Assembly (NCBI RefSeq): GCF_024710765.1
Contig: NZ_JANJUE010000143.1
Coordinates: forward strand, 1 to 40,809
Source of the DNA: Pseudoxanthomonas sp.
GTDB taxonomy: Bacteria > Pseudomonadota > Gammaproteobacteria > Xanthomonadales > Xanthomonadaceae
Length of the DNA stretch: 40,809 nt
Reading direction: 5' to 3'
A program made the translations under genes and the position numbers. How positions within the stretch are numbered: the stretch's first letter is position 1; every line of letters begins with the position of its first letter. Under the pieces are notes generated by a model. It ran no database searches. It saw nothing but the letters and a program-made list of their open reading frames with translations, and was not told the origin of the DNA. This document shows, one piece after another, positions 12,740-32,531 of the stretch.

Positions 12740-13069
12740 TCAGTGCAGGCTCCAGATGTCCGGTATCAGCGCTTCGGCCGATTCGCGGAAGCCATCCTCG
12801 AAGTGTGGCGGCAGGCCAAGCGGGAAGTTCTCCGCGGCCACCTGCAGGCAGGCGATCAGGCGCGTCTGCACGGGTTCATCCACCGACTGCATGACGGTGG
12901 AGGCCACGTAGCCCATCACCGCCAACTGGCCCTGTAGCCTGCCGAAATGTTCCAGCATGTTGGCCACGAGCTGGTCCTGTCGCTGGATACGCTGCTCCAT
13001 CGCAGGCTCCAGCCGACGGCAGGCCACCTCCAGTTCGGCCAGCCGGGTTTCGATCGAACGCTTGTCCAT
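12740..13069 (-). CDS. Small hypothetical protein with N-terminal coiled-coil
   Basis: I do not recognise this 109-residue protein. Its first ~55 residues are charged and helical (RLAELEVACRRLEPAMEQRIQRQDQLVANML) and likely form a coiled coil; the rest is mixed, with no membrane segment or metal motif. ATG 13069 is chosen because AGGAGAGG lies about 5-12 nt before it; an in-frame ATG further up (13102) lacks this. It ends 21 bp from the stop of the convergent EAL-protein gene. The structured element at 13144-13219 lies 75 bp upstream of its start. Confidence 0.6.
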   Translation of the reverse strand: MDKRSIETRLAELEVACRRLEPAMEQRIQRQDQLVANMLEHFGRLQGQLAVMGYVASTVMQSVDEPVQTRLIACLQVAAENFPLGLPPHFEDGFRESAEALIPDIWSLH

Positions 13070-13143
13070 GCACCTCTCCTGCTTGGCTTGGCAGGACTCC
13101 ACTTTGCGGTGCGGGCATCAAGAGAACGTGTGCAGCGGAAAGC

Positions 13144-13219
13144 GGAGAACCGGATGGCGATCCAGACGAGGGTTGACCCGCCATTCCTCGCGGCCGGCAT
13201 GGCCTGAGGCCGGTTCTCC
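13144..13219. ncRNA. Candidate three-way-junction structured element, copy A
   Basis: This 76-nt stretch lies in the 349-bp gene-free gap 13070-13418. It can fold into three stems around a nearly closed junction. P1 is 13144-13153 (GGAGAACCGG) with 13210-13219 (CCGGTTCTCC), 10 bp. P2 is 13154-13159 (ATGGCG) with 13179-13184 (CGCCAT), closing a 19-nt loop, ATCCAGACGAGGGTTGACC. P3 is CCTC/GAGG plus GGCC/GGCC (13186-13209). Only one base (13185) is left unpaired at the junction. A second copy at 32532-32610 shares the P1 ends and the loop but has different P2 and P3 sequences that still pair. It could be a small RNA, a cis element, or a mobile palindromic repeat; the transcribed strand is unknown. 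A weak hairpin (GACTC-GCGAA-GAGTC, 13244-13258) follows on the + strand. I see nothing else clear in the gap. Confidence 0.5.
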
Positions 13220-13418
13220 TTGTGGGGCTGCCGGTCAAGGCTGGACTCGCGAAGAGTCGTTTCCACTGAATGCGCAGCCGGCCGGGATGTTCTCCGGTAT
13301 CCACGCGGGAAAGTCTGCGCCCGGCGGGGGAAACCTGGGGTGCAGGAGCGGTCCATGCTTCGTTAACAAGCAGGCACGGCCGCGCGCGTTCATCACGCAA
13401 TAGGGCCGTTCGGGGAGT

Positions 13419-13715
13419 TCAGTTGATGGGCGCGGCACGCAACAGGCGCGGTTCATGGCCCAGCGGATGCGTCGTCAAGCCGCTGCAATCCACGCAGGCG
13501 TCATCCAAGGGCGCCAGCGGCTGGCGCCAGCCCAGCACGTACCAGCCTTCATCGTCCTCGGCGGGAAAATCGGCATGCCAGGCCCGGCCGTCGTAGCGGC
13601 CGTTGAACCAGCCGGTGATGTCGTCGATGGAACAGGCGTAGATGGCCAGCGGCACGTTCACCGGCGGCGCGCGTTCGGGCAAGTAACAGCACGGGGAATC
13701 CGCAAGCGGACTCAT
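13419..13715 (-). CDS. Small hypothetical protein
   Basis: This 98-residue protein is not one I can name. It has Cys-Cys near the start (DSPCCYLPER), a central aromatic/acidic stretch (GWFNGRYDGRAWHADF, then DDEGWYVLGW) and a C-terminal CVDC pair. No signal peptide or membrane helix is seen. The start at ATG 13715 is supported by AGGAGA 6-11 nt upstream. The Cys pairs could bind a metal, but there is no family to support that. Confidence 0.5.
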   Translation of the reverse strand: MSPLADSPCCYLPERAPPVNVPLAIYACSIDDITGWFNGRYDGRAWHADFPAEDDEGWYVLGWRQPLAPLDDACVDCSGLTTHPLGHEPRLLRAAPIN

Positions 13716-13880
13716 GTGGTCTCCTGCGTGCCGCGCACGCGATGACAGGGAAAGTCGCTTCTACTCCCGAGGCCGGCAAGAGCGTGTATGCATCCGCGGT
13801 GGTTTCCGTTAAGGGCTGATGCACGCATTCGCACGCGGTTGTCACGGCGTGTTTGCACACGGAACGCTAGAACATCACCA

Positions 13881-13897
13881 GCGCGGCTTGGCCGCGC
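13881..13897 (+). other. GC hairpin in leader of ferritin-like gene
   Basis: GCGCGGC (13881-13887), loop TTG, GCCGCGC (13891-13897) is a perfect 7-bp stem followed by GATTTTCT, about 35 bp before the ferritin-like start. It could be a weak intrinsic terminator or a leader hairpin. The T-tract is short and interrupted, so a terminator is not certain. The rest of the 13716-13931 gap shows no clear promoter. Confidence 0.35.
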
Positions 13898-13931
13898 GAT
13901 TTTCTCCCCACCCGACGGCAAGGAGTATCCG

Positions 13932-14543
13932 ATGGCACGCTCATCCATGACCGACCAGACCCAGGTGAACGAACTGCTGCTGCAGGCGCTGGAAACCGAG
14001 CGCGGCGGCATCCAGGTCTATACCGCGGCGATCGAGGCGGCGCAGAACGAGGACCTGAAGGAAGAATGGCAGAAGTACCTGGACGAAACCCGCCAGCACG
14101 AGCAGATCCTGCTGGACGTGTTCGAACAGCTGGGCAAGGACCCGGAAGCCGCCAGTCCCGGTCGCGAAGTCGTCGCCCATCATGGCCGCTCACTGGTGAA
14201 GGCGATCCGGATGGCGATGGCCAGCGCCGATCCCGCGGCGGCGGAACTGGTGGCGGCCGAATGCGTGGTGCTGGCCGAAACCAAGGATCACCAGAACTGG
14301 GAGCTGATCGGCCGGGTCGCCGAGAAGGCGGGCAAGCAGGAAGGCAAGATCCTCAAGGCAGCGCACGACCAGGTGGAAAAGGAAGAGGATCATCACCTCT
14401 ACCACACCCGCGGCTGGGCGCGTGAACTGTGGATCCAGTCGCTTGGCCTGCCGGCGGTATTGCCTCCGCCGGAAGAGGAACGCAACGTCGAAACCGCAAT
14501 CGGCGCCGCGCGTGCCGAGCAGTCGCGCGACAAGATGATGTAG
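13932..14543 (+). CDS. Ferritin-like domain protein
   Basis: The 203-residue product is mostly helical and carries spaced Glu/His pairs of a ferritin-like four-helix bundle: LETERGG in helix 1, DETRQHEQ in helix 2, VVLAETKDHQNWEL in helix 3 and EKEEDHHLYH in helix 4. Such E..ExxH sets bind a di-iron or di-manganese centre and often serve iron storage or peroxide defence, though the activity here is not known. The start at ATG 13932 has AAGGAG 6-11 nt upstream; the frame is open further back to 13788 without a matching site. It is followed after 9 bp by a small basic protein gene, likely in one transcript. Confidence 0.75.
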   Translation: MARSSMTDQTQVNELLLQALETERGGIQVYTAAIEAAQNEDLKEEWQKYLDETRQHEQILLDVFEQLGKDPEAASPGREVVAHHGRSLVKAIRMAMASADPAAAELVAAECVVLAETKDHQNWELIGRVAEKAGKQEGKILKAAHDQVEKEEDHHLYHTRGWARELWIQSLGLPAVLPPPEEERNVETAIGAARAEQSRDKMM

Positions 14544-14552
14544 GAGATGACC

Positions 14553-14756
14553 ATGGATACCGTTCGCAAGCCGGCCGGAGGCGGCAAGCGCGAGTTCATC
14601 GCGCCGAATGGCGACAAGCGCCTGGTTCGCCGGGATGAGCGTGGCCGTTTCGAAGAAAGTGACGATCTGGGCCGTTCCCTGTCCAGGGACGTCCGGACCC
14701 ACGCGACGCATCCGGCCAAACCGGGGCAGGGCGACCGCGGCGACCGCCGCCGCTGA
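14553..14756 (+). CDS. Small basic conserved hypothetical protein
   Basis: This 67-residue, highly charged protein contains KREFIAPNGDKRLVRRDERG followed by GRFEESDDLGRSLSRD, a pattern I recognise from small conserved proteins in many proteobacteria that carry no established function. The tail (PGQGDRGDRRR) is disordered and basic. TAGGAG at 14541-14546 favours ATG 14553 over the in-frame ATG at 14547, which would touch the ribosome binding site. It directly follows the ferritin-like gene and is probably cotranscribed with it. Nucleic-acid binding is possible from the charge only. Confidence 0.7.
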   Translation: MDTVRKPAGGGKREFIAPNGDKRLVRRDERGRFEESDDLGRSLSRDVRTHATHPAKPGQGDRGDRRR

Positions 14757-14860
14757 GGCCATCCGCGACACCCTTCCGTCGCATTCCGGTTGGCGCCGGG
14801 ATGCGGCGGTGCCCCCATCGTGGAAGCCGCGGGTACCGCCGCCGTCTGCGGCCTGGCCGC

Positions 14861-15154
14861 TCAGAACTCGTCGACGAATTCGACCGCCATGCCCAGGCTC
14901 TCCGCGCTGCGGATGATCAGTTCGCGGACCTCGTCGCCCGCACGCGGCCCGGGCACTTCTATCTCCAGGGCGTGAATGCCACCGCTGCCCTGATCATCGA
15001 CCAGTCCCGCGGAACTGGAATCATCGTCGTCCATGTGCGGCATCAGGTCCGCCACTTCCTCCACCCGTTCGACGCCGTCCACGCCGTGCACCACGCTGAT
15101 CACCGTGGCGGCATCGGCTTCACTTCCGGTCAGGCGAACTCTCAGCACGGCCAT
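14861..15154 (-). CDS. Small acidic hypothetical protein
   Basis: A 97-residue acidic protein. It begins with a beta strand and helix (MAVLRVRLTGSEADAATVISVVHGVDGVERVEEVADLMP split by a Gly-Val turn), has an Asp/Ser-rich linker (MDDDDSSSAG), and ends with a second beta-alpha unit (HALEIEVPGP...VRELIIRSAESLGM). The pattern suggests a ferredoxin-like alpha/beta fold. No function is known to me. It converges on the 67-residue gene across 104 bp; that gap has GC-rich self-complementary stretches but no T-tract terminator. Confidence 0.6.
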   Translation of the reverse strand: MAVLRVRLTGSEADAATVISVVHGVDGVERVEEVADLMPHMDDDDSSSAGLVDDQGSGGIHALEIEVPGPRAGDEVRELIIRSAESLGMAVEFVDEF

Positions 15155-15240
15155 GGGGAGGTCTCGGGTTCGGGGAATGGGGGAAGTACCCGATGAATCG
15201 GGGACGGGCCGGGTTTCGTTGCGGACGCTGTCCGCGCGAC

Positions 15241-15266: not shown

Positions 15267-15442
15267 AGGAAGGACTTTCGGCATCCCGCATGAGCCGGGA
15301 CCGCGACTCCGGAATCCCGGGCATTCATCCAGCTGTCCACCTCTTAAAGCGGATGCGCTGACGAGCACGTGAAGAATATCCACATACACGCTCGACACGC
15401 CCGTACTGGCAGGCTGCGCGTCATCTCATCCTCGAAGTGACG

Positions 15443-15916
15443 ATGTACCGGGTCCTGATTGTCTGCGTCGGCAATATCTGCCGAAGTCCGATGGCCGAAG
15501 CCATCCTGAGCGCGCGGCTGGGCGGCGACGTCCATGTGCGATCCGCCGGCCTGGCGGCGCGGATCGGTGATGGCGTGTATCCGATGGCCGCCGAGTTGTT
15601 GAAGGAAAATGGTCTGGGATTGGATCACCATGCCGCGCGCCAGATCGATCTGCAGATGCTGGCCGAGGCGGATCTGATCCTGGCGATGGAGAATCGCCAG
15701 CTCCGCGCACTCGCGGCGATCGCGCCACCGCTGCGCACGCGCATGCACCTGCTGGGGCGGTGGAAGGGGATGCGCGAGATACGCGATCCCTGCGGACGGC
15801 CGCGCGAGGAGTTCATCCGCACCTTCGAACTCATCGATTCGTGCGCACGCGCGTGGTGCGATCGCATGCCGATGAACGCCAGTTCACGAATGTGCGCGGT
15901 GCCTGCACACAGCTGA
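15443..15916 (+). CDS. Low-molecular-weight protein tyrosine phosphatase (Wzb-type)
   Basis: The 157-residue product has the phosphatase loop CVGNICRS at residues 8-15 (Cys8-x5-Arg14) and the general-acid DP in EIRDPCGR near residue 116. Partners in this family (Wzb, EpsP, Etp) dephosphorylate the tyrosine-rich tail of Wzc-type kinases and so control polymer length and export. A Wzc-type kinase with such a tail is two genes downstream, which strongly suggests that pairing. ATG 15443 is used; an in-frame GTG at 15437 is an alternative, and both have weak ribosome binding sites. It opens the polysaccharide cluster, 162 bp before the WecA-type gene. Confidence 0.9.
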   Translation: MYRVLIVCVGNICRSPMAEAILSARLGGDVHVRSAGLAARIGDGVYPMAAELLKENGLGLDHHAARQIDLQMLAEADLILAMENRQLRALAAIAPPLRTRMHLLGRWKGMREIRDPCGRPREEFIRTFELIDSCARAWCDRMPMNASSRMCAVPAHS

Positions 15917-16078
15917 GCGATTGCCCGTGCGCACGTCGCGCTTTCATGCGCTCATCAAGATGCTGTCCGTAGATTCGCAACGGAACGAACCACTAACACG
16001 CGTATCACGTGGGACGGTGGTTTTGCCAGGGATGACCGGTTGGACAGGATGCCATCACGGACAAACGAGGAATTCTGG

Positions 16079-18388
16079 ATGGAGCATCCGAGGATCATCG
16101 CCGCCAGCGCGATCGCGCTGGCGGTGACATTGTTCGCCATCTTCTCGATGCGACCGTGGGCGCGCCGGGTCGGCCTGGTGGACCGCCCCGACGACGACCG
16201 CAAGCACCACAACGGCCGCGTGCCGCTGATTGGCGGCATCTGCTTCTTCATCGGGCTGCTGGTGGGACTGGCCTACCTGGGCTTCATCGACCGCTTCGTC
16301 ATGAGCGTGATGATGGGCGCCGCACTGATCGTGGCGATGGGCGTGGCCGACGACGTGGTCCACCTGACGGTGCAATCGCGGCTGCTGATCGAATCGGCGA
16401 TCGTCGCGCTGGTGATCCTGAGCACCGGCTACTACGTCGACAATTTGGGCGGCCTGTTGCCGGGCGACATCCGCCTGGGCATCTGGGGCATCCCGCTGAC
16501 CATCTTCGCGGTCATCGGGCTGATCAACGCCTTCAACATGCTGGACGGCATCGATGGCCTGGCCGCCTCCGTGGCGCTGGTCTGCATCGGCTCGGTGCTG
16601 ATGTACGACCGCGCCGGCTGGACCGCGGTGGGCGCCATGCTGATGCTGCAGGTGCTGTTCGCCGCCCTGATTCCATACATCTTCGCCAACCTGGGCTGGC
16701 CGGACGGGCGCAAGATCTTCATGGGGGACGCCGGCAGCATGGCGATCGGCTTCCTGCTGGGCTGGAGCCTGATCTACCTGAGCCATTCGCGGGTCGGCCG
16801 GCTGGCGCCGGTGGACGTGCTGTGGTGCGTCGCGCTGCCGGTGATGGATACGCTGGCGGTGATGTACCGGCGCATCCGCGTGGGGCGTTCGCCATTTGGC
16901 GCCGATCGCCAGCACTTGCATCACCTGCTGATGGACGAGGGCTTCTCGGCACGCACGACCCTGGCCCTGATGGTTGCCGCCGGCATTGGCCTGGCGCTGC
17001 TGGGCTTCGTGCTGCGCGCCGCCCCCGACCTGCTCAACCTGGCGTGCTTCATCGCCGCCACGGTGATGTATGTCGTGGGCCTGCCGCGCCTGCTGGAAAC
17101 GCGCAAGCGCGGTTTCCGCTGGCGCTGGCGCCCGTCCACCGGGCTGGCGCGGTTCGTGCCGGCGCGCAACGCGGCGCGGGCGATGTCGGCGCCCGCCAGC
17201 AGCGAGGATCACGAGCCGTACCCGCTGGCCCGGGACGCCGATGGCAACGAACCCCTGCGGGCCCTGTGCGTGGTCGCGGCGACGCCGGAAGCGATGGGCG
17301 TGGCGCCGATCGCGCAGCGCCTGGCCGATGACGGCCGCTTCCAGACCAGCGTCTGCCTGGCCGAGGTACCCGGCACCGACGGCGAGGCCGCGCTGCGGCT
17401 GTTCGGCCTGGAGGCCCAGGAACGCCTGGCCGGCGACGATGGCACCGACGCGCTGGTCAACGGCGTGCGCGAGCTGCTCGATCAGTTGCGCCCGGATGTG
17501 GTGCTGGTGCCCGGCAACGGTCCGGCCACCTTCGCCCTGAGCCTGGCCGCGCATGCCGATGAAGTACCGGTGGTCTGCGTGGACGGCGATGCCAGCGTGG
17601 CCACGCCGTCGCACTGGCCCAACGAGGCCAGCCGCCGCATCGTCCAGTCGCTGGCGGCACTGCACGTGGCCGCCAGCGAGGACGCCGGCCAGCGCCTGCT
17701 GCTGGAAGGCGTGCCGGAAGACCGCGTGCTGGTGCAGGACGGCATCGTCGCCGAAAGCCTGCGCACCGGCCTGGACACCCTGCGCGGCGAACCGCGCTTG
17801 GGCAGCGCGATCGCCTGGCGATTCCCGTTCCTGCGCCCGGACAGCCCGCTGCTGATGGTGGCCTGCACCGCCGACCGCGCCGACGCCGCGCCGCTGGTCG
17901 AGGCATTGGAGATGATCGCCCGACGCCGTCCCGACGTGGACATCGTCTGGCCGCGCGAAGCCGCCGAGGCGAACGAGGCATCCGGCGCGCTGCACGCCTT
18001 CAACAACGTGCACATGCTGGAGCTGTCCGACTACCTGGCGTGGCTGCACCTGCTGGAGCGCGCGCAACTGGTGCTGGCGGGGCAGGGCAGCACATTCCCC
18101 GGACAACTGCCCGGCAAGCCGGTCCTGCGGGTGTGCGATACGCCGGGCAGCGACGGCATCGCCATCGGTACCACCGCGCTGGCCATCGCCGGACGGGTGC
18201 TGACCCTGCTCAGCGAGCCCGCCGTCTACCAGTCGCTGGCCACCGCGACCACCAACGACCCGCGCGCCGGATTGCCCGGCGACGAGGTTCCGGACGCGCT
18301 GATCCGCCTGCGCGCGGGCAAGCACGAATCCCAACCGCGCGAAGCCGACGACGTCCGCTACGCCTATGGCGTGCGCGAGGCGTCCTGA
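16079..18388 (+). CDS. WecA-type phosphoglycosyl transferase fused to degenerate WecB-like domain
   Basis: The 769-residue protein has two parts. Residues 1-345 are a polytopic MraY/WecA-family enzyme with all key motifs: GVADDVVHL (about 87-95), NAFNMLDGIDGLA (150-162), IFMGDAGS (212-219) and HLHH (279-282). This part loads a sugar-1-phosphate onto undecaprenyl phosphate to start the repeat unit. After a basic linker (345-394), residues 395-740 follow the UDP-GlcNAc 2-epimerase (WecB) fold in order: VVAATPEAM in place of GTRPEaiK, LRPDVVLVPGNG (474-481) in place of kPD.vlVhGDT, VCVDGD (499-504) in place of .veAGLRT, and WPNEASRR (513-520) in place of P.PEE.NR. The catalytic positions are changed (Asp to Asn480; the GHR histidine region reads ACTADR near 597; no SGG-EE). 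So this part is probably not an epimerase; it may bind nucleotide-sugar or protein. The start has GAGGA 7-12 nt upstream. WecA is usually about 350 residues and separate. Confidence 0.85.
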   Translation: MEHPRIIAASAIALAVTLFAIFSMRPWARRVGLVDRPDDDRKHHNGRVPLIGGICFFIGLLVGLAYLGFIDRFVMSVMMGAALIVAMGVADDVVHLTVQSRLLIESAIVALVILSTGYYVDNLGGLLPGDIRLGIWGIPLTIFAVIGLINAFNMLDGIDGLAASVALVCIGSVLMYDRAGWTAVGAMLMLQVLFAALIPYIFANLGWPDGRKIFMGDAGSMAIGFLLGWSLIYLSHSRVGRLAPVDVLWCVALPVMDTLAVMYRRIRVGRSPFGADRQHLHHLLMDEGFSARTTLALMVAAGIGLALLGFVLRAAPDLLNLACFIAATVMYVVGLPRLLETRKRGFRWRWRPSTGLARFVPARNAARAMSAPASSEDHEPYPLARDADGNEPLRALCVVAATPEAMGVAPIAQRLADDGRFQTSVCLAEVPGTDGEAALRLFGLEAQERLAGDDGTDALVNGVRELLDQLRPDVVLVPGNGPATFALSLAAHADEVPVVCVDGDASVATPSHWPNEASRRIVQSLAALHVAASEDAGQRLLLEGVPEDRVLVQDGIVAESLRTGLDTLRGEPRLGSAIAWRFPFLRPDSPLLMVACTADRADAAPLVEALEMIARRRPDVDIVWPREAAEANEASGALHAFNNVHMLELSDYLAWLHLLERAQLVLAGQGSTFPGQLPGKPVLRVCDTPGSDGIAIGTTALAIAGRVLTLLSEPAVYQSLATATTNDPRAGLPGDEVPDALIRLRAGKHESQPREADDVRYAYGVREAS

Positions 18389-18431
18389 TCGGCGTGCGTG
18401 ATTTCCCTTTGGCAACGAGGTGACTTCCCCC

Positions 18432-20693
18432 ATGGCCACTCAACTCATCACCCGAACGTTTCCGCCCGGCCCCGAGCTGACGCCCGCGCCCCGCGAGGGT
18501 GACGTCGATCTGCCGACCCTGGTGGCGACGCTCAACGAGAACAAGCGCGTGATCCTGTTCGGCACGGCGGTGTTCTTCCTCGCCAGCCTGCTGTACCTGG
18601 CCATCGTCACCCCGACCTACGAGGCCAACGCCGTGGTCCAGGTCGAGAACCGGCCCGCGATTCCGCCGGGCGTGAATCCCAATGCCGCCATGCAGGGCCC
18701 GCCCCCGATCTCCACCTCGCCGGGCGCGACCGAAGTGCAGTTGCTGACTTCGCGCCGGGTGATTGGCGAGGCAATGAGCCGGCTGGATCTGGACGTGGAC
18801 GTGCAGCCGGCGCGGCTGCCGTTGCTGGGCGACTTCATCGCCCGTCGCTACCAGAAGTCGCATCCCGGCACGCTGGCCACGCCCTGGCTCGGCCTCGACC
18901 GCTATGGCTGGGGTGGCGAGGTGCTGGACATCGGCCGGATGGAAGTGCCGCGCGGGATGACCGGCACGCGCCTGCAAGTGATCGCCGGCGAGAACGGCCA
19001 GTACGTGCTGGCTTCCTCGGGCGGCGATGTGCTGCTGCGCGGCCGCGCCGGCGCGGTGGCGCAGTCCGGCGGCATCGTCATGCAGGTACAGCGGCTGGTC
19101 GCCAATCCGGGCATGCGTTTCGACGTGACCCGGCGCGATCCGTCCACGGTGATGGCGGCGCTGAAACAGGACATCACCGCCACCGAGCAGGGCCGCAACT
19201 CCGGCGTCATCGCGCTGACCTATGCCAACGCCGACCCCGAGCGTGCCCGCGCGGTGCTGGACGAGGTCACCCGCGAGTACGTGCACCAGAACGTCGCCCG
19301 CACCTCCGCCGAGGCCGCGAGCCGGTTGAAGTTCGTGACCGAGCAACTGCCCAACGTGCGCGAGGAGCTGGACAAGGCGCAGGCCGCGCTGCGCAATTTC
19401 CAGTCGCGCACCCAGACCCTGGACGTGGCGGTGCAGAACCGTGCGCTGCTGGACCAGACCATCGCGCTGGATTCGAGCATCCAGCAGCTGCGCATCCAGA
19501 TGACCGAGGTCGCCAACCGCTTCACGCCCTCGCATCCGACCTACCAGACCCTGCAGAAGCAGATCAGCCAGTTCGAAGGCGAGCGCGCGGCCCTGCAGGG
19601 CAAGATCCACAACCTGCCGGATACCCAGCAGGGCCTGTTCCGCCTGAATCGCGACGTAGAAGTCACCAACCAGACCTACGCCAACCTGCTGGATCAGGCG
19701 CAGCAGCTGAACATCGCCCGCGCCAGCGCGGTCGGCAACGCACGCGTGATCGATCCGGCCGCGGTCAACCTCAACAGCCCGGCCTGGCCCAAGCCGCTGC
19801 CGGTGCTGGCCGCCGGCACCGCGCTGGGCGCGGTGCTGATGATCGCCTTCGTGCTGATGCGCCAGCTGTTCCGCCGCGGGGTCGAGGATCCGGTGGACAT
19901 CGAGTTGCTGGGCCTGCCGGTGTATGCGTCGATTCCCTTCAGCGAGAAGGGCCACGAGCTGACCCAGCGCACCGGCAACCGCCGCCGCGAACGGCGCCAG
20001 CGCCTGCTGGCCCTGAGCGCGCCGTCCGACCTGGCGATGGAGGCGCTGCGCACGCTGCGCACCAGCCTGCACTTCGCCCGGATGAAGACCCGCAACAACC
20101 TGCTGATGATTTCCGCGCCCAGCCCGGGCGTGGGCAAGACCTTCGTCTGCGCCAACCTGGCGGTGACCATCGCCCAGACCGGGCAGCGGGTGCTGCTGAT
20201 CGATGCCGACATGCGTCGCGGCACGCTGCATGACGCGGTCGGCGTGCGCTGGGAGGGCGGACTTTCCGATCTGATCATGGGCCGGATCGAACTGGAGGAT
20301 GCCGTGCGCCGGGTCGCCGGCGCCGACAACCTGTCGTTCATTTCGCGCGGCGCGATTCCGTCCAATCCGTCCGAACTGCTGATGCACGAGAACTTCACCG
20401 CGTTGCTGAAGGACGTCGCGCAGGACTACGACATCGTGCTGATCGATACCCCGCCGGTGCTGGCGGTGACCGACGCGGCGGTGATCGGCCAGCACGCCGG
20501 CACCTGCCTGCTGGTGGTGCGCTGGGGCCTGAACCAGCAGCGCGAGATCGCCCTGGCCAAGCAGCGCCTGGAGCAGAACGGTGTCGAGGTGAAGGGCGCC
20601 ATCTTCAACGGCGTCGAGAAGCGCGGGGCAGGGCAGTACGCCTACACCTACTACGAGTACCTGCCCGCGCCACGCACCGCCGGTTCCCGCTGA
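18432..20693 (+). CDS. Wzc-type polysaccharide copolymerase and tyrosine kinase (BY-kinase)
   Basis: A 753-residue inner-membrane protein that, by family, sets chain length and energises polymer export with Wza. It has a first membrane helix (about 39-59), a large periplasmic region with Wzz-type N-terminus and coiled coil (about 300-400), a second helix (about 456-476) and a C-terminal cytoplasmic kinase. The kinase shows Walker A SAPSPGVGKT (around 562-569), Walker A' LLIDADMRRG (around 588-595), Walker B DIVLIDTPPV and a tail with clustered tyrosines (YAYTYYEY, around 735-742), the normal autophosphorylation site. The periplasmic part is longer than in E. coli Wzc, and kinase and copolymerase are in one chain. 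ATG 18432 is preferred because GAGGTGA lies about 8 nt before it; an in-frame GTG 18420 overlaps that site. The upstream phosphatase is the expected partner. Confidence 0.93.
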   Translation: MATQLITRTFPPGPELTPAPREGDVDLPTLVATLNENKRVILFGTAVFFLASLLYLAIVTPTYEANAVVQVENRPAIPPGVNPNAAMQGPPPISTSPGATEVQLLTSRRVIGEAMSRLDLDVDVQPARLPLLGDFIARRYQKSHPGTLATPWLGLDRYGWGGEVLDIGRMEVPRGMTGTRLQVIAGENGQYVLASSGGDVLLRGRAGAVAQSGGIVMQVQRLVANPGMRFDVTRRDPSTVMAALKQDITATEQGRNSGVIALTYANADPERARAVLDEVTREYVHQNVARTSAEAASRLKFVTEQLPNVREELDKAQAALRNFQSRTQTLDVAVQNRALLDQTIALDSSIQQLRIQMTEVANRFTPSHPTYQTLQKQISQFEGERAALQGKIHNLPDTQQGLFRLNRDVEVTNQTYANLLDQAQQLNIARASAVGNARVIDPAAVNLNSPAWPKPLPVLAAGTALGAVLMIAFVLMRQLFRRGVEDPVDIELLGLPVYASIPFSEKGHELTQRTGNRRRERRQRLLALSAPSDLAMEALRTLRTSLHFARMKTRNNLLMISAPSPGVGKTFVCANLAVTIAQTGQRVLLIDADMRRGTLHDAVGVRWEGGLSDLIMGRIELEDAVRRVAGADNLSFISRGAIPSNPSELLMHENFTALLKDVAQDYDIVLIDTPPVLAVTDAAVIGQHAGTCLLVVRWGLNQQREIALAKQRLEQNGVEVKGAIFNGVEKRGAGQYAYTYYEYLPAPRTAGSR

Positions 20694-20713
20694 TCCCCCC
20701 ACAAGGACGCGCC

Positions 20714-22129
20714 ATGCAGATCACGATGTCCCCGTACTACGGGAAGCCCGACTTTTCCCCGCTGGCGGCGGCGCCGGCGCAGCGCATCGACCCCGTGTCG
20801 GTGGCCGACCTGCTGCGCAATGCCTTCGTCTATCCGCCGCACTCCATCTATGAAGGCATCAAGCTGGTCACGTTCGGGTTCTCGCCCGAGCAGGACATGC
20901 ACACCACGCCGCGCTTCCGCTTCAAGTTCCGCAATGCCGGCGAGGTGCCCGAGGTGGCCAGCCATCCGCAGGACTGGATCGCCGTCTATCACCGCAAGCT
21001 GTGCGAGGCGATCGAAAAATCCTGCGCATCGATGGCCTCGCCCTGGCTGCTGCAGAGCGGCGGCAAGGATTCGACCACGCTGGCCATCGCCCTGGCCGAC
21101 GCCCGTCCCGATGCCACCTGCATCACCTATCTGGGCGGGCGCGAGGAGAACGAGGTCGATTCCGCCCGCCAGGTCGCGCGGCGACTGGGCCTGCGCCACG
21201 AATCGCTGGTCTGCGATCCGGGTCGCGCCTATGACCGCTACCTGGCGCTGGCGGAGCGAATGCCCCTGCTCACCGCGGACTTCGCCCTGCTGTCTTACGC
21301 CGACCTCGGTACCGAAGTACGTGCGCGCGGCGGCGACGGCGTGATCGACGGCCTGGGTGCCGACAGCTACTTCGGCACTCCGGTCGATCGGCAGCACCAG
21401 GTCCTGGGCAGGCTGGCGCGCGACGTGCGGCTACCGCTGGATCTCACCGCGCTGCCCGGGGTGGACCGCAGCTTCGAGGCCTGTTTCCTGCTCGGCACCC
21501 TGCAGATGACCCCGATCGAACGTGTGTTCCCGGGCTCGCGCTTCAGCGATGCGGAAGTGGACGCGCTGTTCGGGCATCCGATCTCGCGTCGATCGCGGGC
21601 GCGGATGACGCTGTTCCAGGAAGAGATCGCCACCGCCACCAGCGAATGGGAATGGCGCGACATGTCGATGTCGATCGCCGGTTCGGCGGGTGCTTTCGCC
21701 AAGGGCCTGTACACCGCCGACGCGCTGGGCCTGGAAGCGGCCTATCCGTTCTGCGACTACGATCTGCGCGAGTGGATCCACCATGAGGTGCCGCGGCGGC
21801 AGAAGGTCGATCCGGAAACGGGCGTCAACAAGATGCTGATCCGGCGCCATATCGCCACCCATTTCGCGGAACTGCCGTACGTCCAGCGCAAGGGCAGCTT
21901 CCGCTTCGACCTGTGCGGCCTGGCCGCGCAACGGTTCGACCAGGTCCATGACTACGCGCGCGCGCTGGCGGAGTTGTTGCCGGGCGCGGCGCCGTGGCTG
22001 GAACGCAACCGGCGCCGGCTGGACAACAAGTACCACGCCTCCAAGTTCTACCTGCTGGCCATCGTCTTGCCGTGGCTGGCGGCGCGTGGCGCGGCGGCGA
22101 CACCGGTCGCACGCGAGGAAGCGGCCTGA
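20714..22129 (+). CDS. Asparagine-synthase-like ATP-pyrophosphatase lacking glutaminase domain
   Basis: The 471-residue protein has the PP-loop ATP-pyrophosphatase signature LLQSGGKDSTTLAIALA (SGGKDS at 115-120) and the downstream pattern of asparagine synthase C-terminal domains (GGREENEVDSARQVARRLGL; GVIDGLGADSYFG; ARMTLFQEE; GLEAAYPFCDYDLREWIHHEVPR split over two helices). Class-B asparagine synthases begin with a Cys2 glutaminase domain; here the N-terminus has no such Cys and is too short, so ammonia would have to come from free NH4+ or another protein. In this polysaccharide cluster it more likely adenylates a carboxylate on a sugar and amidates it than makes free asparagine. That is inference; no uronic-acid-forming enzyme is in the window. 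It sits between kinase and beta-helix genes with short gaps. Confidence 0.8.
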   Translation: MQITMSPYYGKPDFSPLAAAPAQRIDPVSVADLLRNAFVYPPHSIYEGIKLVTFGFSPEQDMHTTPRFRFKFRNAGEVPEVASHPQDWIAVYHRKLCEAIEKSCASMASPWLLQSGGKDSTTLAIALADARPDATCITYLGGREENEVDSARQVARRLGLRHESLVCDPGRAYDRYLALAERMPLLTADFALLSYADLGTEVRARGGDGVIDGLGADSYFGTPVDRQHQVLGRLARDVRLPLDLTALPGVDRSFEACFLLGTLQMTPIERVFPGSRFSDAEVDALFGHPISRRSRARMTLFQEEIATATSEWEWRDMSMSIAGSAGAFAKGLYTADALGLEAAYPFCDYDLREWIHHEVPRRQKVDPETGVNKMLIRRHIATHFAELPYVQRKGSFRFDLCGLAAQRFDQVHDYARALAELLPGAAPWLERNRRRLDNKYHASKFYLLAIVLPWLAARGAAATPVAREEAA

Positions 22130-22131
22130 CG

Positions 22132-23223
22132 GTGGACCGCCATCGACGCCGCTGCCTGCACGGCCTGCTGGCGGGTGGCCTGCTCGCCGGCACCGCGTGG
22201 CCAGGCCTGGCGAAATCGTCGGCGCCCGCTGGTGCGCGCCTGGACGTGCGCGACTTCGGCGCCCGCGGCGACGGCCGCCAGGACGATACCCGCGCGTTCC
22301 AGGCGGCGATCGACGCCTTGCCGGATGCCGGCGGAACAGTCGTCGTGCCGGCCGGCAACTATCTGATCAATCCGTTGCGCAGCGTGCGACTGCGCAGCCG
22401 CGTGCACCTGTCGATGGCGGCCGACACCCGGCTGGTCGCCATGAGCAACGCCGCCCCGCGCGCCTATGTCCTGCTGCTGCAGCAGGTGGAGGACGTCGAA
22501 GTGTCGGGCGGCCGCATCATCGGCGACCGCGAGCGGCACCTGGCCACCACCGGTGAATGGGGCCACGGGGTGATGGTGCGCGGCAGCGGGCGGATCCGCC
22601 TGCACGACCTGCACATCACCCGCTGCTGGGGCGACGGCATTTCCGTCGGCGGCCTGTCCGGCGTGGCGGGGGGCGCGCCACTGCCCAGCCGCGACGTACT
22701 GATCCAGGACGTGGTCTGCCAGGGCAACCGCCGCCAGGGACTCACCATCGGCCGTTCCCGCCAGGTCCGGGTGCGGCGCTGTTCGTTCGTGGATACCGGC
22801 GGGATATTGCCCGGTTGCGGCATCGACATCGAACCGGATCCGGGGGGCGACGCGCGCGACATCGTGATCGAGGACTGCCTGGCCCAGGGCAATCACGGCG
22901 CCGGCATCCAGTTGTACGAGCGCGTCCACGACGTCACCATCCGCCGTTGCCGCATCCTCGACAACCGCGGCGACGGCATCCACCTGCGCGCGGCGCGGGG
23001 CGGTGTCATCGAGGGCAACGAGATCCGCGGCAACGGCCTGCGCGGGATCGCGATCCGCGCCGCCAGCCGCGACTTCCATCTGCGCGACAACCGGATCGGC
23101 GGCAACTCCGGCGCGGTGGCCGCACGCAGGCGCGAAGCCGGCGAGCGCGGCTGGATGAACGTGGACGTTGCCCGCGGCGCGGATGGCATCCGCATAGAGG
23201 CCAGCAGCCGTCCAGGCCGCTGA
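22132..23223 (+). CDS. Exported right-handed beta-helix protein (pectate-lyase-like), paralogue 1
   Basis: The 363-residue protein starts at GTG 22132, 2 bp after the previous stop; GAGGA lies 13-17 nt upstream. An N-terminal RRR then CLHGLLAGGLLAG resembles a Tat or Sec signal. The mature part opens with LDVRDFGARGDGRQDDTRAFQAAID, the pectate-lyase_3 start, followed by repeated parallel-beta-helix turns (ISGG-, GDGI-, GNGL-type repeats with Arg/Asn/Gly ladders) up to about residue 340. Conserved shared blocks with the next gene include [24 protein letters not shown] and CGIDIEPD. Proteins of this fold inside polysaccharide clusters usually cut, epimerise or modify the polymer in the periplasm. 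I cannot assign a substrate. The fold is recognised; enzymatic activity is not shown. Confidence 0.8.
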   Translation: MDRHRRRCLHGLLAGGLLAGTAWPGLAKSSAPAGARLDVRDFGARGDGRQDDTRAFQAAIDALPDAGGTVVVPAGNYLINPLRSVRLRSRVHLSMAADTRLVAMSNAAPRAYVLLLQQVEDVEVSGGRIIGDRERHLATTGEWGHGVMVRGSGRIRLHDLHITRCWGDGISVGGLSGVAGGAPLPSRDVLIQDVVCQGNRRQGLTIGRSRQVRVRRCSFVDTGGILPGCGIDIEPDPGGDARDIVIEDCLAQGNHGAGIQLYERVHDVTIRRCRILDNRGDGIHLRAARGGVIEGNEIRGNGLRGIAIRAASRDFHLRDNRIGGNSGAVAARRREAGERGWMNVDVARGADGIRIEASSRPGR

Positions 23224-23242
23224 TGATCGGTGGAGCCCTTGT

Positions 23243-23305
23243 GTAGGAGCGACGTGAGTCGCGACGCCGCTGCGGTTGATGGGGCGCGACTCACGTCGTT
23301 CCTGC
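23243..23305. repeat. REP-type inverted pair (GTAG-headed, SMAG-like)
   Basis: GTAGGAGCGACGTGAGTCGC begins at 23243 and its near-reverse complement (GCGACTCACGTCGTTCCTGC) ends at 23305. Each arm is itself a small hairpin (GCGAC-GTGA-GTCGC). This matches the GTAG-headed REP family of Stenotrophomonas/Xanthomonas/Lysobacter genomes, which occurs as inverted pairs in intergenic DNA and is tied to RAYT transposases. No RAYT gene is in this window. It lies between the two paralogous beta-helix genes and may limit readthrough. The gene-free gap 23224-23546 holds this element plus the promoter elements listed next. Confidence 0.8.
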
Positions 23306-23413
23306 AGGGCGAATCATGTTGGAAAAAGCGCGCGAACAGCGGACTCGACCATGGAATCGGGTAAAGGAAACCCGCTGTTTCCTCCCTCAACCTGAATCAT
23401 TTTGCGCGCGGTT

Positions 23414-23429
23414 TTTGAGCATGCTCACA
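23414..23429 (+). promoter_or_regulatory. Clp/CRP-like binding site upstream of second beta-helix gene
   Basis: TTTGAGCATGCTCACA fits the CRP/Clp consensus TGTGA-N6-TCACA with a single mismatch in the conserved bases (T for G at position 2). Its core TGAGCATGCTCA is a perfect 12-bp palindrome. The centre (23421.5) is about 60 bp before the start point predicted from the -10 box at 23469, which fits a class I activator position (-61.5). In Xanthomonads Clp is a c-di-GMP-responsive regulator of exopolysaccharide and extracellular enzyme genes. Binding is inferred from sequence alone. Confidence 0.55.
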
Positions 23430-23468
23430 GATACGAAACCAGCATCTGTACGACGCGCGTGGAACCCC

Positions 23469-23498
23469 TATAGTCACACCGTCGCGGGTACCCGCGAC
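23469..23498 (+). promoter_or_regulatory. Putative -10 box followed by 18-bp palindrome at predicted start
   Basis: TATAGT (23469-23474) is a good -10 box; no good -35 lies 17 bp upstream, as expected if an activator bound at 23414-23429 helps RNA polymerase. The predicted start (about 23481) coincides with a perfect 18-bp palindrome, GTCGCGGGTACCCGCGAC (23481-23498). In DNA this could be a repressor site; in RNA it would form a hairpin at the very 5' end (stem GUCGCG/CGCGAC), which can protect a message from decay. Confidence 0.45.
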
Positions 23499-23522
23499 AT
23501 CTCCTTGGTTTTCCTTTAGTGA

Positions 23523-23547
23523 CGGGTCAATTGACCCGCAGGGGTCA
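23523..23547 (+). promoter_or_regulatory. Palindrome with alternative hairpin over ribosome binding site
   Basis: CGGGTCAATTGACCCG (23523-23538) is a perfect 16-bp palindrome just before the second beta-helix gene. GGGTCA occurs again at 23542-23547, covering the GGGG ribosome binding site and the A of ATG. TGACCC (23532-23537) can therefore pair upstream (23524-23529 side, ribosome binding site free) or downstream (loop GCAG, ribosome binding site closed). The two hairpins exclude each other. This is either an RNA switch or a tandem protein operator. Confidence 0.4.
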
Positions 23548-24743
23548 TGGCTGTGAAAAACAATGCACTCGTGCACGACGTGCGCGAGGCAGGGACGCCT
23601 CGGCGCGAATTTCTGCGCAAATCCTTGCTGCTGGCGCTGCCGGCGGCGCTCTACGCGACAGGCGTTCCCAAGGTGCTGGCGGCGGTCTACTCGCCACCCG
23701 CCCGCGTGCGGGGCAGCACCACCCTGAGCGTGCGTGACTGGGGCGCCCGTGGCGACGGCGCGACCGACGACACCACCGCGTTCCAGTACGCCATCGATGC
23801 GCTGCCCTCCACCGGCGGCACGGTGGTGGTGCCGGCGGGCGATTACGTCATCGATCCGACCCGCAACGTCCGCCTGCGCAGCAACATGCACCTGCTGTTG
23901 CAGGACGGCGCCCGGCTGCGCGCCAAGCGCAACGACAAGGAGCGCGCCTACGTGCTGATGGCCTACAAGGTCAGCAACGTGGAGATTTCCGGCGGCCAGA
24001 TCATCGGCGACCGCGAAACCCACCTGGGCACGACCGGTGAATGGGGCCACGGCATCATGATCCGGGGTTCCTCGAAAGTCACCGTGCGCGACATCCATGT
24101 GTCCAAGTGCTGGGGCGACGGCATCTCGATTGGCGGCGCGATGGTCACCAATGCACCGACCATCGCCTGCAGCGACGTGGTCATCGCCAACGTGGTCTGC
24201 ACCGGCAACCGTCGCCAGGGCCTGACCATCGGCCATGCGATCGGGGTCAAGGTCTACGACAGCGAATTCAGCGACTGCAACGGCATCGCGCCGGCCTGCG
24301 GCATCGACATCGAACCCGACGTCGGCGACCTGCGCACCACCTCCAACGTGCACATCGAGAACTGCCACATCCACGGCAATGCCGGCAACGGCATCCTGGT
24401 GTACAAGCGGGTCAAGGGCGTCACCATCAAGCGCTGCACCATCGAGTACAACGGCGGCCACGGCATCCTGACCATCGGTCCGGAAAGCGGCTACATCGCC
24501 CAGAACACCATCCGCCACAACTACCTGGTCGGCATGATGTTCGGCAGCGCCACCCGCAGCTACCAGTACAGCGGCAACATTTCGCGCAACAACAACACCC
24601 GCCTGCATGGCGTCAACAAGACGGTTTATCCGCTCACCTACATGACCGGGTTCGTTGACGGCAACAAGGGCAACGGCGCGCACGTGGCGCGGGTCAGCGA
24701 CGTTTACGACATCCGGGTGACCACCAACGGCTACGCCAAATGA
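23547..24743 (+). CDS. Tat-exported right-handed beta-helix protein, paralogue 2
   Basis: The 398-residue protein starts at ATG 23547 with a clear Tat signal: PRREFLRK (Arg19-Arg20, Phe22, Leu23) then [19 protein letters not shown]. The mature part begins [21 protein letters not shown] like its neighbour and shares long blocks ([50 protein letters not shown]). By eye about half to two thirds of aligned residues match, so the pair arose by duplication. Turns of the helix carry Asn/Gly ladders (NAGNGI, YNGGHG, RHNYL). It most likely works on the polysaccharide in the periplasm. The 323-bp upstream region has its own promoter-like elements and palindromes, so it may be controlled apart from the genes before it. 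A strong terminator follows. Confidence 0.85.
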
Positions 24744-24787
24744 TCCACGGGTGAGCCGGCGCTCAGCGTCATGACGAGCGCGTGCAG

Positions 24788-24814
24788 AGGCGGCCTCCGG
24801 GCCGCCTTTTTATT
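24788..24814 (+). terminator. Intrinsic terminator after second beta-helix gene
   Basis: AGGCGGCC (24788-24795), loop TCCG, GGCCGCCT (24100s, 24800-24807) is a perfect 8-bp GC stem followed by TTTTATT. It lies 45 bp after the stop at 24743 and before the GT4 gene at 24917, so part of the cluster downstream needs its own promoter or readthrough. Confidence 0.88.
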
Positions 24815-24916
24815 GCCTGTTTGTTGCATGACGCGCCGGTTTGGTGGTGAGCGCGTGAACGGTTTTGCGGACTCGACTTTCTAGAATCGGCACGACGCTT
24901 CCCCTACGGCGCCTGC

Positions 24917-26077
24917 ATGAAGTTCATCCTGTTCGCGAATACAGACTGGTACCTCTACAACTTCCGACTTTCCACCGCGCTGCAGCTCCGATCGATGGGC
25001 ATGGACGTGGTGATGGTGTCGCCTCCGGGCGACTTCGGCGACCGCTTCCAGACGCATGGCATCCGCTGGCGGCCCTTGCCGATGCAGCGTTCCAGCCTGA
25101 ATCCCTGGCGCGAGGCCGGCACCCTGGCGCGGTTGGTGCAGCTGCTGCGCGAGGAACAGCCGGACCTCCTGCACAGCTTCACCCTCAAGTGCGCGGTGTA
25201 CGGCGCGCTGGCCGCGCGCGTGGCGCGGGTGCCGGCGGTGGTCAACGCGGTCACCGGCCTGGGCTATGTGTTCTCCAGTGATCGCGCCAAGGCGCGGATG
25301 CTGCGGCCGCTGGTCTCGCTGCTGATGCGCGGCGCGCTGGGTGGCGAGCGTTCGCGGGTGATCCTGCAGAACCCCGACGATGCGCAGGCCTTCGCCGATG
25401 CGCGCCTGGCGCCACCGCACAACATCCGCCTGATCCGCGGCTCCGGCGTGGACCTCACCCGGTTCCTGCTGCGGGAGCCCGATGGCGCCACGCGACGCCC
25501 GCTGCGGGTGTTGCTGGCCGCGCGCCTGCTGCGCGAGAAGGGCATCCACGAGTACGCCGCCGCCGCCGCGCAATTGAAGGCGCAGGGCAGGGACATCCGG
25601 TTCCTGCTCGCCGGCATGCCCGACACCGGCAACCCGCATTCGGTGGCCGACGGGGAAGTGCGGGCCTGGCACGCGCAGGGCACGCTGGAGTGGCTGGGGC
25701 ATGTCGACGACATGCCCGCGCTGCTGCGCACGGTCGACGTGATGGCGCTGCCGAGCTATTACCGGGAAGGCGTCCCGAAGAGCCTGATCGAGGCAGGCGC
25801 CTGCGGCATCGCGCTGGTCACCACCAACCTGCCGGGTTGCCGCGAGGTGGTCAGCCGCGACGGCGAGGACGGGCTGCACGTGGAACCCCGCAGCGCCGCC
25901 TCGCTGGCGCAGGTGATCGCCCGCCTGGATGATGACCGCGACCTGCTGCGGCGACTGGGCGAGCGCGCCCGTGCCCGCGCGCTCAGCGACTTCGACGAAC
26001 GGGTGGTGATCCGCAAGACCTGCGAGGTCTATGGCGAACTGCTGCCGCTGCGGCTGCAGGGAGCGATGGCCGGATGA
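24917..26077 (+). CDS. GT4-family glycosyltransferase (polysaccharide cluster)
   Basis: A 386-residue GT-B enzyme. The N-terminus (MKFILFANTDWYLYNFRLSTALQL) and HSFTLKCAVYGALAAR are typical of PglA/TuaC-like transferases; the donor motif EGVPKSLIEAGACGIALVTT (283-302, E-x7-E type) and the following CREVV.RDGEDGL are clear. It should add a sugar to the undecaprenyl-linked intermediate on the cytoplasmic face. Donor is unknown; relatives use N-acetylated hexosamines or uronic acids. It begins a tightly coupled run (ATGA overlap with the flippase gene) and follows a terminator by about 100 bp, so a promoter is expected in 24815-24916, where I see only a TAGAAT at 24882 without a matching -35. 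Confidence 0.9.
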   Translation: MKFILFANTDWYLYNFRLSTALQLRSMGMDVVMVSPPGDFGDRFQTHGIRWRPLPMQRSSLNPWREAGTLARLVQLLREEQPDLLHSFTLKCAVYGALAARVARVPAVVNAVTGLGYVFSSDRAKARMLRPLVSLLMRGALGGERSRVILQNPDDAQAFADARLAPPHNIRLIRGSGVDLTRFLLREPDGATRRPLRVLLAARLLREKGIHEYAAAAAQLKAQGRDIRFLLAGMPDTGNPHSVADGEVRAWHAQGTLEWLGHVDDMPALLRTVDVMALPSYYREGVPKSLIEAGACGIALVTTNLPGCREVVSRDGEDGLHVEPRSAASLAQVIARLDDDRDLLRRLGERARARALSDFDERVVIRKTCEVYGELLPLRLQGAMAG

Positions 26078-27375
26078 TGCACAGGATCCTGCCCATGCCG
26101 CTGCGTCCCGCCCTGAGCGCGCTGTCCCTGCTGTGGTTGGCCACCGCCGTCGGCGCGGTGATGGTGTTCGCGGCGCAGACGCTGCTCGCGCGCCGTTTCG
26201 GTCCCGCCGAGTACGGCCTGTTCGCATCCTCGCTGGCGACCATCACCCTGGTCGCGCCGCTGGCCGGGTTCGGCCTGTCCCAGTTCCGGCTCAAGGCATT
26301 CGGCACGGAGGGCTGGCAGGCCGAACGCTGGCGTCGTGCTTCCGAGCGCTTCATCGCCGCCAGCACCACGCTGGCCGTGGTCGGCGTGGCCGCCTGGGCC
26401 GAATGGGGCCCCCCGGTCGATGCGCGCACCCGGCAATTGCTCTGGCTGCTCCTGCCGGTGGTCGTGGGATTGCTGGCGGTCGAGCAGATTGGAAGCAAGC
26501 TGCGGCTGGAGGAACGCTACGGCGCGCTGGCCGCCTGGCAACTATGGATGCCGCTGGGCCGGTTGCTGGTGGCGGGCTACGCGCTGGCCTGGTCGGGCAT
26601 GCGGGTGGAGATGGTGGCGCTGGGCTACAGCCTCATCGCGGTGCTCGCGGTCCTCGGCGCGTGGCCGCAATGGCGGGCGATGGCGCGGGGTCGCTGGACC
26701 CTGCGCGGACATGGCGCGAAGCAGGAGGTGGCCTTGCCCGCGACGCTTCCCGGGGTGCGCGAGCTGTGCGTGCAGGCCTGGCCCTACGGCATGGCGGCGG
26801 TGCTGTACCCGGTGTTCTTCCAGATCGGTACGGTGTTGTTGAAGTACCTGGCCGGCGATGCGGCGGCGGGCCATTTCGGCATCGCGCTGGCGGTGATGAC
26901 CGCGATCTACCTGTTCCCGGCCACCGTGTACCAGAAGTTCCTGCTGTCCAAGCTGCATCGCTGGGCGGTCCACGACAAGCCCCGCTTCCGCCAGGCCTAT
27001 CGCTGGGGGGGCATCGCCATGCTGGCCAGCGGCATCGCCGGCGGCGTCGCGTTGGCGTTCGGCGCGGCGCTTGCACCGCAGATTTTCGGCGCCGGCTATC
27101 GCACCGTGGTGCCGCTGCTGCAGGTGCTGGCGCTGTGCGTGCCACTGCGTTTCCTGTCCACCGCGGTGGGTTCGGTGCTGCTCACCGAAGGGCACATGCG
27201 CTACCGGGTCGGCGCGATGGCGCTGGCCGCGCTGGCGGCGGTCCTGCTCAACCTGGCGCTGATTCCCGCGTTCGCCGAACTGGGCGCGGCCATCGCCACC
27301 GTCATCGCCGAAGCCTTGCTGCTCGGTCTCATGTACCGCGGTGCCCGTCGGGTCGACGCGCTGGAGCTGGACTGA
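26074..27375 (+). CDS. Wzx-type oligosaccharide flippase
   Basis: The 433-residue product has about 12 hydrophobic helices and the flippase start VMVFAAQTLLARRFGPAEYGLFASSLA, with further family features such as FGAGY and a C-terminal helix pair. Wzx proteins move the undecaprenyl-diphosphate-linked repeat unit across the inner membrane. Its first ATG overlaps the stop of the GT4 gene, and its stop overlaps the next start (TGATG). A second ATG lies at codon 2. Role fits the Wzy-dependent pathway with the polymerase and Wzc/Wza here. Confidence 0.88.
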   Translation: MMHRILPMPLRPALSALSLLWLATAVGAVMVFAAQTLLARRFGPAEYGLFASSLATITLVAPLAGFGLSQFRLKAFGTEGWQAERWRRASERFIAASTTLAVVGVAAWAEWGPPVDARTRQLLWLLLPVVVGLLAVEQIGSKLRLEERYGALAAWQLWMPLGRLLVAGYALAWSGMRVEMVALGYSLIAVLAVLGAWPQWRAMARGRWTLRGHGAKQEVALPATLPGVRELCVQAWPYGMAAVLYPVFFQIGTVLLKYLAGDAAAGHFGIALAVMTAIYLFPATVYQKFLLSKLHRWAVHDKPRFRQAYRWGGIAMLASGIAGGVALAFGAALAPQIFGAGYRTVVPLLQVLALCVPLRFLSTAVGSVLLTEGHMRYRVGAMALAALAAVLLNLALIPAFAELGAAIATVIAEALLLGLMYRGARRVDALELD

Positions 27376-31181: not shown

Positions 31182-31336
31182 ACAGGCGGTCCCCGCGCGT
31201 GCGCGCATCGGCGACACGCGTTCATCCGCCATTGTCTTCCCGCCGCCGTTCTTTTCACGCACTGCTTGCCACCATGACCGAGCGAACCCGGCCATGCCGG
31301 GGTTGCACATCGTTTTCCGCAGACAGAGGTGTGCGA

Positions 31337-32416: not shown

Positions 32417-32472
32417 CGCACGCCTGTCCCCGGTCGCATCACGCGGCCGGGGAGCGGGTCCCCGGACAAACC

Positions 32473-32504
32473 AAAGGCGACGGCCGTTTCCGGCCGCCGC
32501 CTTT
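32473..32504 (+). terminator. Hairpin terminator at end of polysaccharide cluster
   Basis: AAAGGCGACGGCCG (32473-32486), loop TTTC, CGGCCGCCGCCTTT (32491-32504) forms a 14-bp stem with one mismatch and ends in TTTG. The T-run is short, but the stem is strong and lies 57 bp after the wza stop. The A-rich 5' side and T-rich 3' side suggest it can work in both directions. Confidence 0.75.
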
Positions 32505-32531
32505 GTCATGTGCCCTGCGAAAGGCTCCTGT

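Follow-up and report, generated by a model that had tools for sequence, protein, structure and literature searches.

What are the two similar, stem-rich segments that lie between genes on a Pseudoxanthomonas sp. contig: RNA genes, gene leaders or folded DNA? The window analysed is the whole stretch of 40,809 nucleotides (NZ_JANJUE010000143.1, forward strand), and the two segments are designated copy A and copy B.

Two copies of one homologous unit

The cores of copy A (13144-13219) and copy B (32532-32610) are present letter for letter as first reported, with GGAGAACC and GGTTCTCC at the ends and ATCCAGACG at base 17. The length of 76 to 79 nt given in the preliminary description was too short: by alignments and a covariance model the homologous unit measures about 147-154 nt, and A and B share the letters TGTGG, GGTC, CTGAAT and CCGG beyond the 3' arm. 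The unit and its core are placed as follows, without assignment to a strand.

13142-13288: full homologous unit of copy A, matched by the B-only covariance model R1
13144-13219: core of copy A (P1, formed by GGAGAACC and GGTTCTCC; P2; P3), from sequence, fold and covariation
32530-32682: full homologous unit of copy B, the source of R1 with its three orthologues, and a pattern match
32532-32610: core of copy B (P1, P2, P3), from sequence, fold and covariation

R1 was built from the four B sequences only, with A excluded. It recovers the A of the same genome over its whole length with 46.7 bits (E 1.3e-8 for the sequences searched and 6.5e-7 for the genome, the E-values of such models being rough here), and the A copies of two relatives with 42.9 bits (G031) and 38.1 bits (G012). 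As A did not enter the model, this recovery is the strongest result of the analysis: a B-only model matches A end to end, so the two are paralogous copies whose homology extends over about 150 nt. A looser pattern, GAACC...ATCCAGACG...GGTTC, has two matches in the window, a count reached by none of 100 dinucleotide shuffles, and across the 443 contigs of the genome A and B are the only places where the pattern is found with both full arms. A third match in this genome, with two mismatches (C188:21218), was not counted because it is missing the 3' arm and is located in a REP-like palindrome. That stretch (L003, 1440-1570) carries a partial look-alike of the 5' end of A within a palindrome of GTAGGAGCGACGTGAGTCGCGACC and its near complement, which we take to be REP-like. 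Copy A itself is flanked by near-copies of the P1 arms (GAGAACG, 13122-13128; GTTCTCC, 13289-13295) that are kept in all three A sequences.

Fold and covariation

The P2 letters are as previously given, ATGGCG/CGCCAT in A and GGGGGCC/GGCCCCC in B. The proposed three-way junction is the fold of both cores in this genome, whereas the plus-strand minimum free energy (MFE) structure of the A core in G012 and G031 is not a three-way junction. Compared with 200 shuffles, the fold of A has z-scores of -3.7 on the plus and -3.8 on the minus strand (0/200 shuffles reach A on either strand), and that of B of -3.1 on the plus (0/200) and -3.9 on the minus strand (1/200). A 2-nt 5' bulge in P3, proposed for both copies, is found in the MFE structure of B; in that of A the bulge is 1 nt beside a G-U pair, and 2 nt if this pair is left open. 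The ends and the loop are conserved between A and B as described, but ATCCAGACG is not kept in the B of G005, the most distant B copy.

Stems that change while pairing is kept were the central claim of the preliminary description, and the alignment bears this out. Among 189 alignment cells 92.1% are paired, and covariation scores 0.296, compared with 0.155 on average in shuffles (none of 500 as high) and 0.015-0.083 in controls slid by 1-3 columns. P1 is invariant (8/8 pairs never vary), and the pairs changed on both sides, 10 of 28, fall in P2 (3), P3 (3) and P4 (4); the shuffled mean is 6.2, and 4/500 shuffles reach ten. Pairing is kept through both-side changes in 18 cells (0/500 shuffles), and further standard pair types are not unusual in number (67/500 shuffles). 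The set holds only seven sequences, which are related, and its alignment was fitted to the model, so the covariation is support and not proof. Both alignments A10 and A11 were fitted to the plus-strand model, and one row of A10 (L005) is poorly aligned around P5. On these seven related sequences, pairs are kept through changes on both sides, as in a structured RNA, and the evolutionary change of A and B suggests a putative, previously undescribed small regulatory RNA.

Downstream of the core lies a 3' domain, again given without a strand.

13226-13283: 3' domain of A, read from sequence and alignments
13226-13231 with 13274-13279: P4 of A, GGCTGC with GCAGCC
13244-13248 with 13254-13258: P5 of A, GACTC with GAGTC
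13233-13236 with 13280-13283: possible pseudoknot of A, GGTC with GGCC
32617-32678: 3' domain of B, from sequence, alignments and shuffles
32617-32622 with 32668-32673: P4 of B, GACCGA with TCGGTC
32630-32637 with 32652-32659: P5 of B
32624-32627 with 32675-32678: possible pseudoknot of B, GGTC with GGCC

P4 occupies the same position in A and B with different letters. For two A/B pairs, shuffling of the 3' side, in segments chosen after the helices had been seen, reproduced its co-position in 118 and 100 of 20000 trials; for the three sequences combined, two of them related, it did so in 0/20000. The helix looks real. P5 in B is formed by three different stems around a near-invariant loop that keeps GAAACTGC, and its co-position in three B sequences, with one mismatch allowed and segments likewise chosen afterwards, recurred in 13/20000 shuffles. 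GGTC has two possible partners, GACC in the P2 loop and, to give a pseudoknot, GRCC after P4, each option being present by eye in 7/7 sequences; the pseudoknot is possible, and variation hardly tests it.

In keeping with the preliminary description, no Rfam family accounts for these features. Rfam 15 gave no match in the window at the gathering threshold, permissive scans gave two matches in the A region, seven in the B gap and one in the G005 copy, each far below the gathering score, and the element was not recognised in the open-licence literature searched. Together with the kept pairing, this suggests that A and B represent an undescribed, putative family of structured RNA. Lineage-specific structured sRNAs are a familiar kind of RNA; what is unusual here is that the copies come as a pair and may have a pseudoknotted domain.

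Genomic setting and distribution

The gene-free gaps agree in size with the earlier figures, 349 bp around A (13070-13418) and 441 bp around B (32417-32857) by the gene reading used, and all copies border one exopolysaccharide cluster.

12740-13069, minus strand: P0001, a 109-aa protein with no family match, in whose leader a minus-strand A would fall
15437-32416, plus strand: exopolysaccharide cluster between A and B, from Pfam and NCBIfam
32858-33229, plus strand: P0002, a 123-aa protein downstream of B, with no Pfam or NCBIfam match

Copy A sits between P0001 and a convergent small gene, and copy B between the Wza-like gene and P0002. The cluster encodes an LMW phosphatase, a WecA-like/WecB-like fusion, Wzc, an Asn-synthase-like protein, a beta-helix protein, a glycosyltransferase and the Wza-like protein; a flippase-like gene is just below the cut-off, and no polymerase was identified by Pfam and NCBIfam on part of the ORFs. 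In the fusion, a single plus-strand ORF (16040-18388) joins a WecA-like transferase to a WecB-like epimerase domain. A direct repeat of 300 bases with 70% identity (22239-22538 and 23723-24022) suggests two adjacent related genes, the second of which encodes a right-handed beta-helix protein. P0001 has a match in 4/38 genus genomes, and P0002 has matches in 34/38, with up to five per genome. In G005 the equivalent of 13070-15200, from P0001 to the cluster, is shorter and carries no A, and a 97-aa gene (14861-15154) is inverted; copy A falls in the stretch that differs in that genome.

The pattern with both arms was found in 3/38 genus genomes (this genome, G000, with G012 and G031), as two syntenic matches each, about 19 kb apart. 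R1 matches four of the 38, three with A and B and the fourth, G005, which is about 75% identical over the cluster, with a diverged B alone and no A. The same three genomes were returned by R1 from a family sample (3/247) and by R2, a model built from five of the seven sequences, from an order sample (3/398); the genus, family and order samples overlap, and the family and order scans, which used stricter filters, did not return G005, whose membership of these samples is not shown. The preliminary description had predicted many hits for a covariance-model search; the outcome was one or two copies per genome, with a maximum of two across the 38, in four genomes of one genus. Further candidates were rejected: two other matches from a GTDB scan of one genome per species (L022, L026) are chance, lying inside long ORFs with nothing found by the model, and a family pattern search matched 8/395 genomes, the five outside the known three being read as chance from the matched letters. 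Two of these five (G090 and G114) had no R2 match in the order scan. The DNA match at G005:C2 is 25 bases long.

The Wza-like gene, the last of the cluster, has some match in 30/38 genus genomes, and a strong one (E 5e-55 or better) in 12 besides the four. Within about 1.1 kb at and behind this gene in those 12, no convincing B was present among 52 matches (to E 10, filters off), the best of them having 15.0 bits and E 0.017 over 60 bases. In what was searched, the element is restricted to one lineage, four Pseudoxanthomonas genomes.

This distribution bears on the proposal of a mobile palindrome. REP and MITE palindromes are intergenic imperfect palindromes with many dispersed copies, and integron attC sites have conserved ends, the boxes RYYYAAC and GTTRRRY, around a variable paired middle. 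The elements share with the former that they are palindromic and intergenic, but they occur as at most two syntenic copies per genome in the 38, without dispersal, and A is much less similar to B than either copy is to its equivalents in G012 and G031. We consider a dispersed palindrome unlikely. With attC they share the plan of conserved ends and a variable paired middle, but GGAGAACC and GGTTCTCC differ from the attC boxes in both arms and the unit extends past the palindrome. A folded DNA element of either type, marking the borders of the polysaccharide island as a cruciform or a site of single-strand recombination, is quite improbable on these grounds, even though two direct copies with invariant ends and variable paired stems flank the cluster and the gene order from P0001 to the cluster differs in G005. 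No further copies occur in the 38 genus genomes or the family and order samples, the viral contigs searched lack the exact pattern, and there is no integrase among the proteins tested, which are part of the window ORFs. The A and B sites seem not to exchange, since orthologues are far closer than paralogues.

Strand, signals and the class of RNA

We give a probability of roughly one half to the reading that A and B are paralogous structured RNAs, with B a putative minus-strand sRNA gene and A its sibling ahead of P0001; this value reflects the mixed strand signals. The signals at B, like the P4/P5 domain and the shared border with the polysaccharide cluster, were absent from the preliminary description.

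32664-32691, minus strand: putative sigma-70-like promoter of B RNA (TTGACG 32691-32686, 16 nt, GAGATT 32669-32664)
32465-32657, minus strand: proposed B sRNA of about 193 nt, inferred, with start and end set and unmapped
32472-32505, minus strand: terminator-like hairpin, also downstream of the Wza-like gene on the plus strand

Transcription would start near 32657, and the RNA would open with the hairpin P5, continue into the three-way junction P1(P3,P2) and end at an intrinsic terminator that it shares with the convergent exopolysaccharide operon. TTGACG-N16-GANATT is present on the minus strand in 4/4 B copies, two of them nearly identical, and a consensus scanner applied to three copies passes it in G005 (9 of 12) and fails it in this genome and G012. 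If the start is put on the 7th base past the -10 and the end 8 bases past the stem, the four RNAs would be 193, 196, 196 and 173 nt long, and the first P5 arm starts 5, 6 and 7 bases beyond the -10 in this genome, G012 and G005. The T-run behind the hairpin stem is longer on the minus than on the plus strand in G012 (TTTGTTTTTTT), G031 (TTTGTTTTT) and G005 (TTTTGTTTT) and weaker in the window (TTTGGTTTG); a terminator scanner applied to the minus strand of three copies passes G012 and fails this genome and G005. Conservation in the B gap peaks over 40 nt (32680-32719), where this genome, G012 and G005 are identical at 34/40 positions; this stretch takes in the -35 and adjoining upstream DNA and may be a site for a regulator ahead of the minus promoter. 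The short ORF that follows AAAGGAGGGT (GTG at 32705) is open in this genome and G012, but G005 keeps neither its start nor its frame, and it was not taken as coding.

Folding energies and pair types divide over the strand. By alifold the B region with the hairpin favours the minus strand (-83.4 against -75.0 kcal/mol), as do three of four B-only stretches, the fourth being level (-58.5 against -58.1), whereas both A+B alignments (-30.4 against -23.1; -36.9 against -33.4) and A alone (-87.4 against -79.0) favour the plus strand. Counts of G-U against A-C also lean towards plus, with 13 against 2 cells on A10, which was fitted to the plus model, 7 against 4 on A9 with P5, and 7 against 4 in hand-listed helices of six of the seven sequences. 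P4 has its 3' strand in the spacer and -10 edge of the putative minus promoter. Neither P4 nor the GGTC/GRCC pairing could form in the minus transcript, because both include bases upstream of its proposed start.

These plus-leaning signals, with P4 co-positioned in different sequence and GGTC/GRCC possible in 7/7 by reading alignments, suit a doubtful alternative in which the plus strand gives an RNA from all 150 nt of the unit, a three-way junction with a pseudoknotted P4/P5 domain. This RNA, made at B by read-through from the polysaccharide operon, would act in cis or, once processed, as a 3' sRNA. In Xanthomonas campestris numerous sRNAs are reported to derive from mRNAs, one from a 3'-UTR, in the part of PMC7694677 consulted. 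Against it, no plus promoter was found near A or B by the scanner on the copies of this genome or by eye, the hairpin precedes the unit, separated from it in G005 by a short stretch alone, and A on the plus strand points into a convergent gene.

Copy A has no TTGACG, and the scanner finds no promoter-like site there and no terminator-like site on its P0001 side, which speaks against the minus strand. Under the preferred reading of paralogous RNAs, A would be a sibling RNA ahead of P0001 on the same strand, or the leader of that gene. That minus-strand A is simply a cis-acting P0001 leader, riboswitch-like or controlling translation, with B a decayed or exapted relative, is unlikely. In its favour, A is placed between P0001 and a possible start, the scanner found no terminator-like site in between, the leader would measure about 190 nt, and the first bases of the P0001 Shine-Dalgarno sequence are predicted to pair in a local hairpin in 3/3 A sequences. 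Blocking the 5' arm of P1 leaves this hairpin unchanged in 3/3 printed folds, so in silico P1 does not switch the ribosome site, and that idea was dropped. The P0001 orthologue of G005 does without A, and B is kept though no gene lies downstream of it on the minus strand. A same-strand gene directly downstream in every copy, as of a riboswitch or cis leader, was found on neither strand: on minus A precedes P0001 and B precedes no gene; on plus A precedes none and B precedes P0002 but lies behind a candidate P0002 promoter (TTGACG 32797-32802, TGCTAT 32821-32826), which was seen by eye in the alignment and is not reported by the scanner.

EAR and JUMPstart/ops are RNA or DNA elements in the 5' leaders of polysaccharide operons. 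A and B share the polysaccharide-operon link, but B follows the terminator hairpin of its operon, A lies upstream with other genes between, and Rfam gave no match. For sRNAs of Xanthomonas campestris pv. vesicatoria, strong structure and the absence of extended single-stranded regions are described (PMC3771888, as consulted in part), and the predicted folds of A and B fit this shape. The sRNA sX13, which is reported in Pseudoxanthomonas as well, is strongly structured, with three stem-loops and C-rich loops, and lies downstream of polA (PMC3771888, same part). It shares with A and B the bacterial family and the strong structure; A and B, unlike sX13, contain a three-way junction and occur as two copies in a narrow lineage, the sequences having been compared only via Rfam scans. 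By analogy with such structured Xanthomonas sRNAs, the RNA of A and B may work via exposed loops or protein binding, and from position its plausible targets would be exopolysaccharide or neighbouring genes.

RsmU, a GGA-bearing Xanthomonas sRNA that processing releases from the 3'-UTR of a predicted comEA mRNA (PMC7694677, part consulted), would resemble A and B as a UTR-derived sRNA with GGA, the two being set side by side by description. An RNA that sequesters RsmA/CsrA via GGA motifs is highly improbable here. The minus strand carries AGGAG at P1 and, by eye, CTGGAT in the P2 loop of six of the seven copies, and an RsmA-binding sRNA is reported in X. campestris in the same part of PMC7694677; against it, P1 buries one of the GGA motifs, and the P2 loop of G005 lacks one.

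Bolder, and rather unlikely, is the proposal that the three-way junction and a pseudoknotted P4/P5 form a new architecture, in which matched regulators bracket the island, B as an sRNA and A as a leader, and respond to the same signal.

The four genomes with the element, set beside the 12 genus genomes that have a Wza-like relative and no such RNA behind it, provide a comparative set. If transcribed, A and B would represent an unannotated, complexly folded RNA family that is linked to polysaccharide genes and seemingly confined to part of one genus. A duplicate with one copy before a terminator and the other ahead of a gene would lay the step between a stand-alone sRNA and a leader open to direct study.
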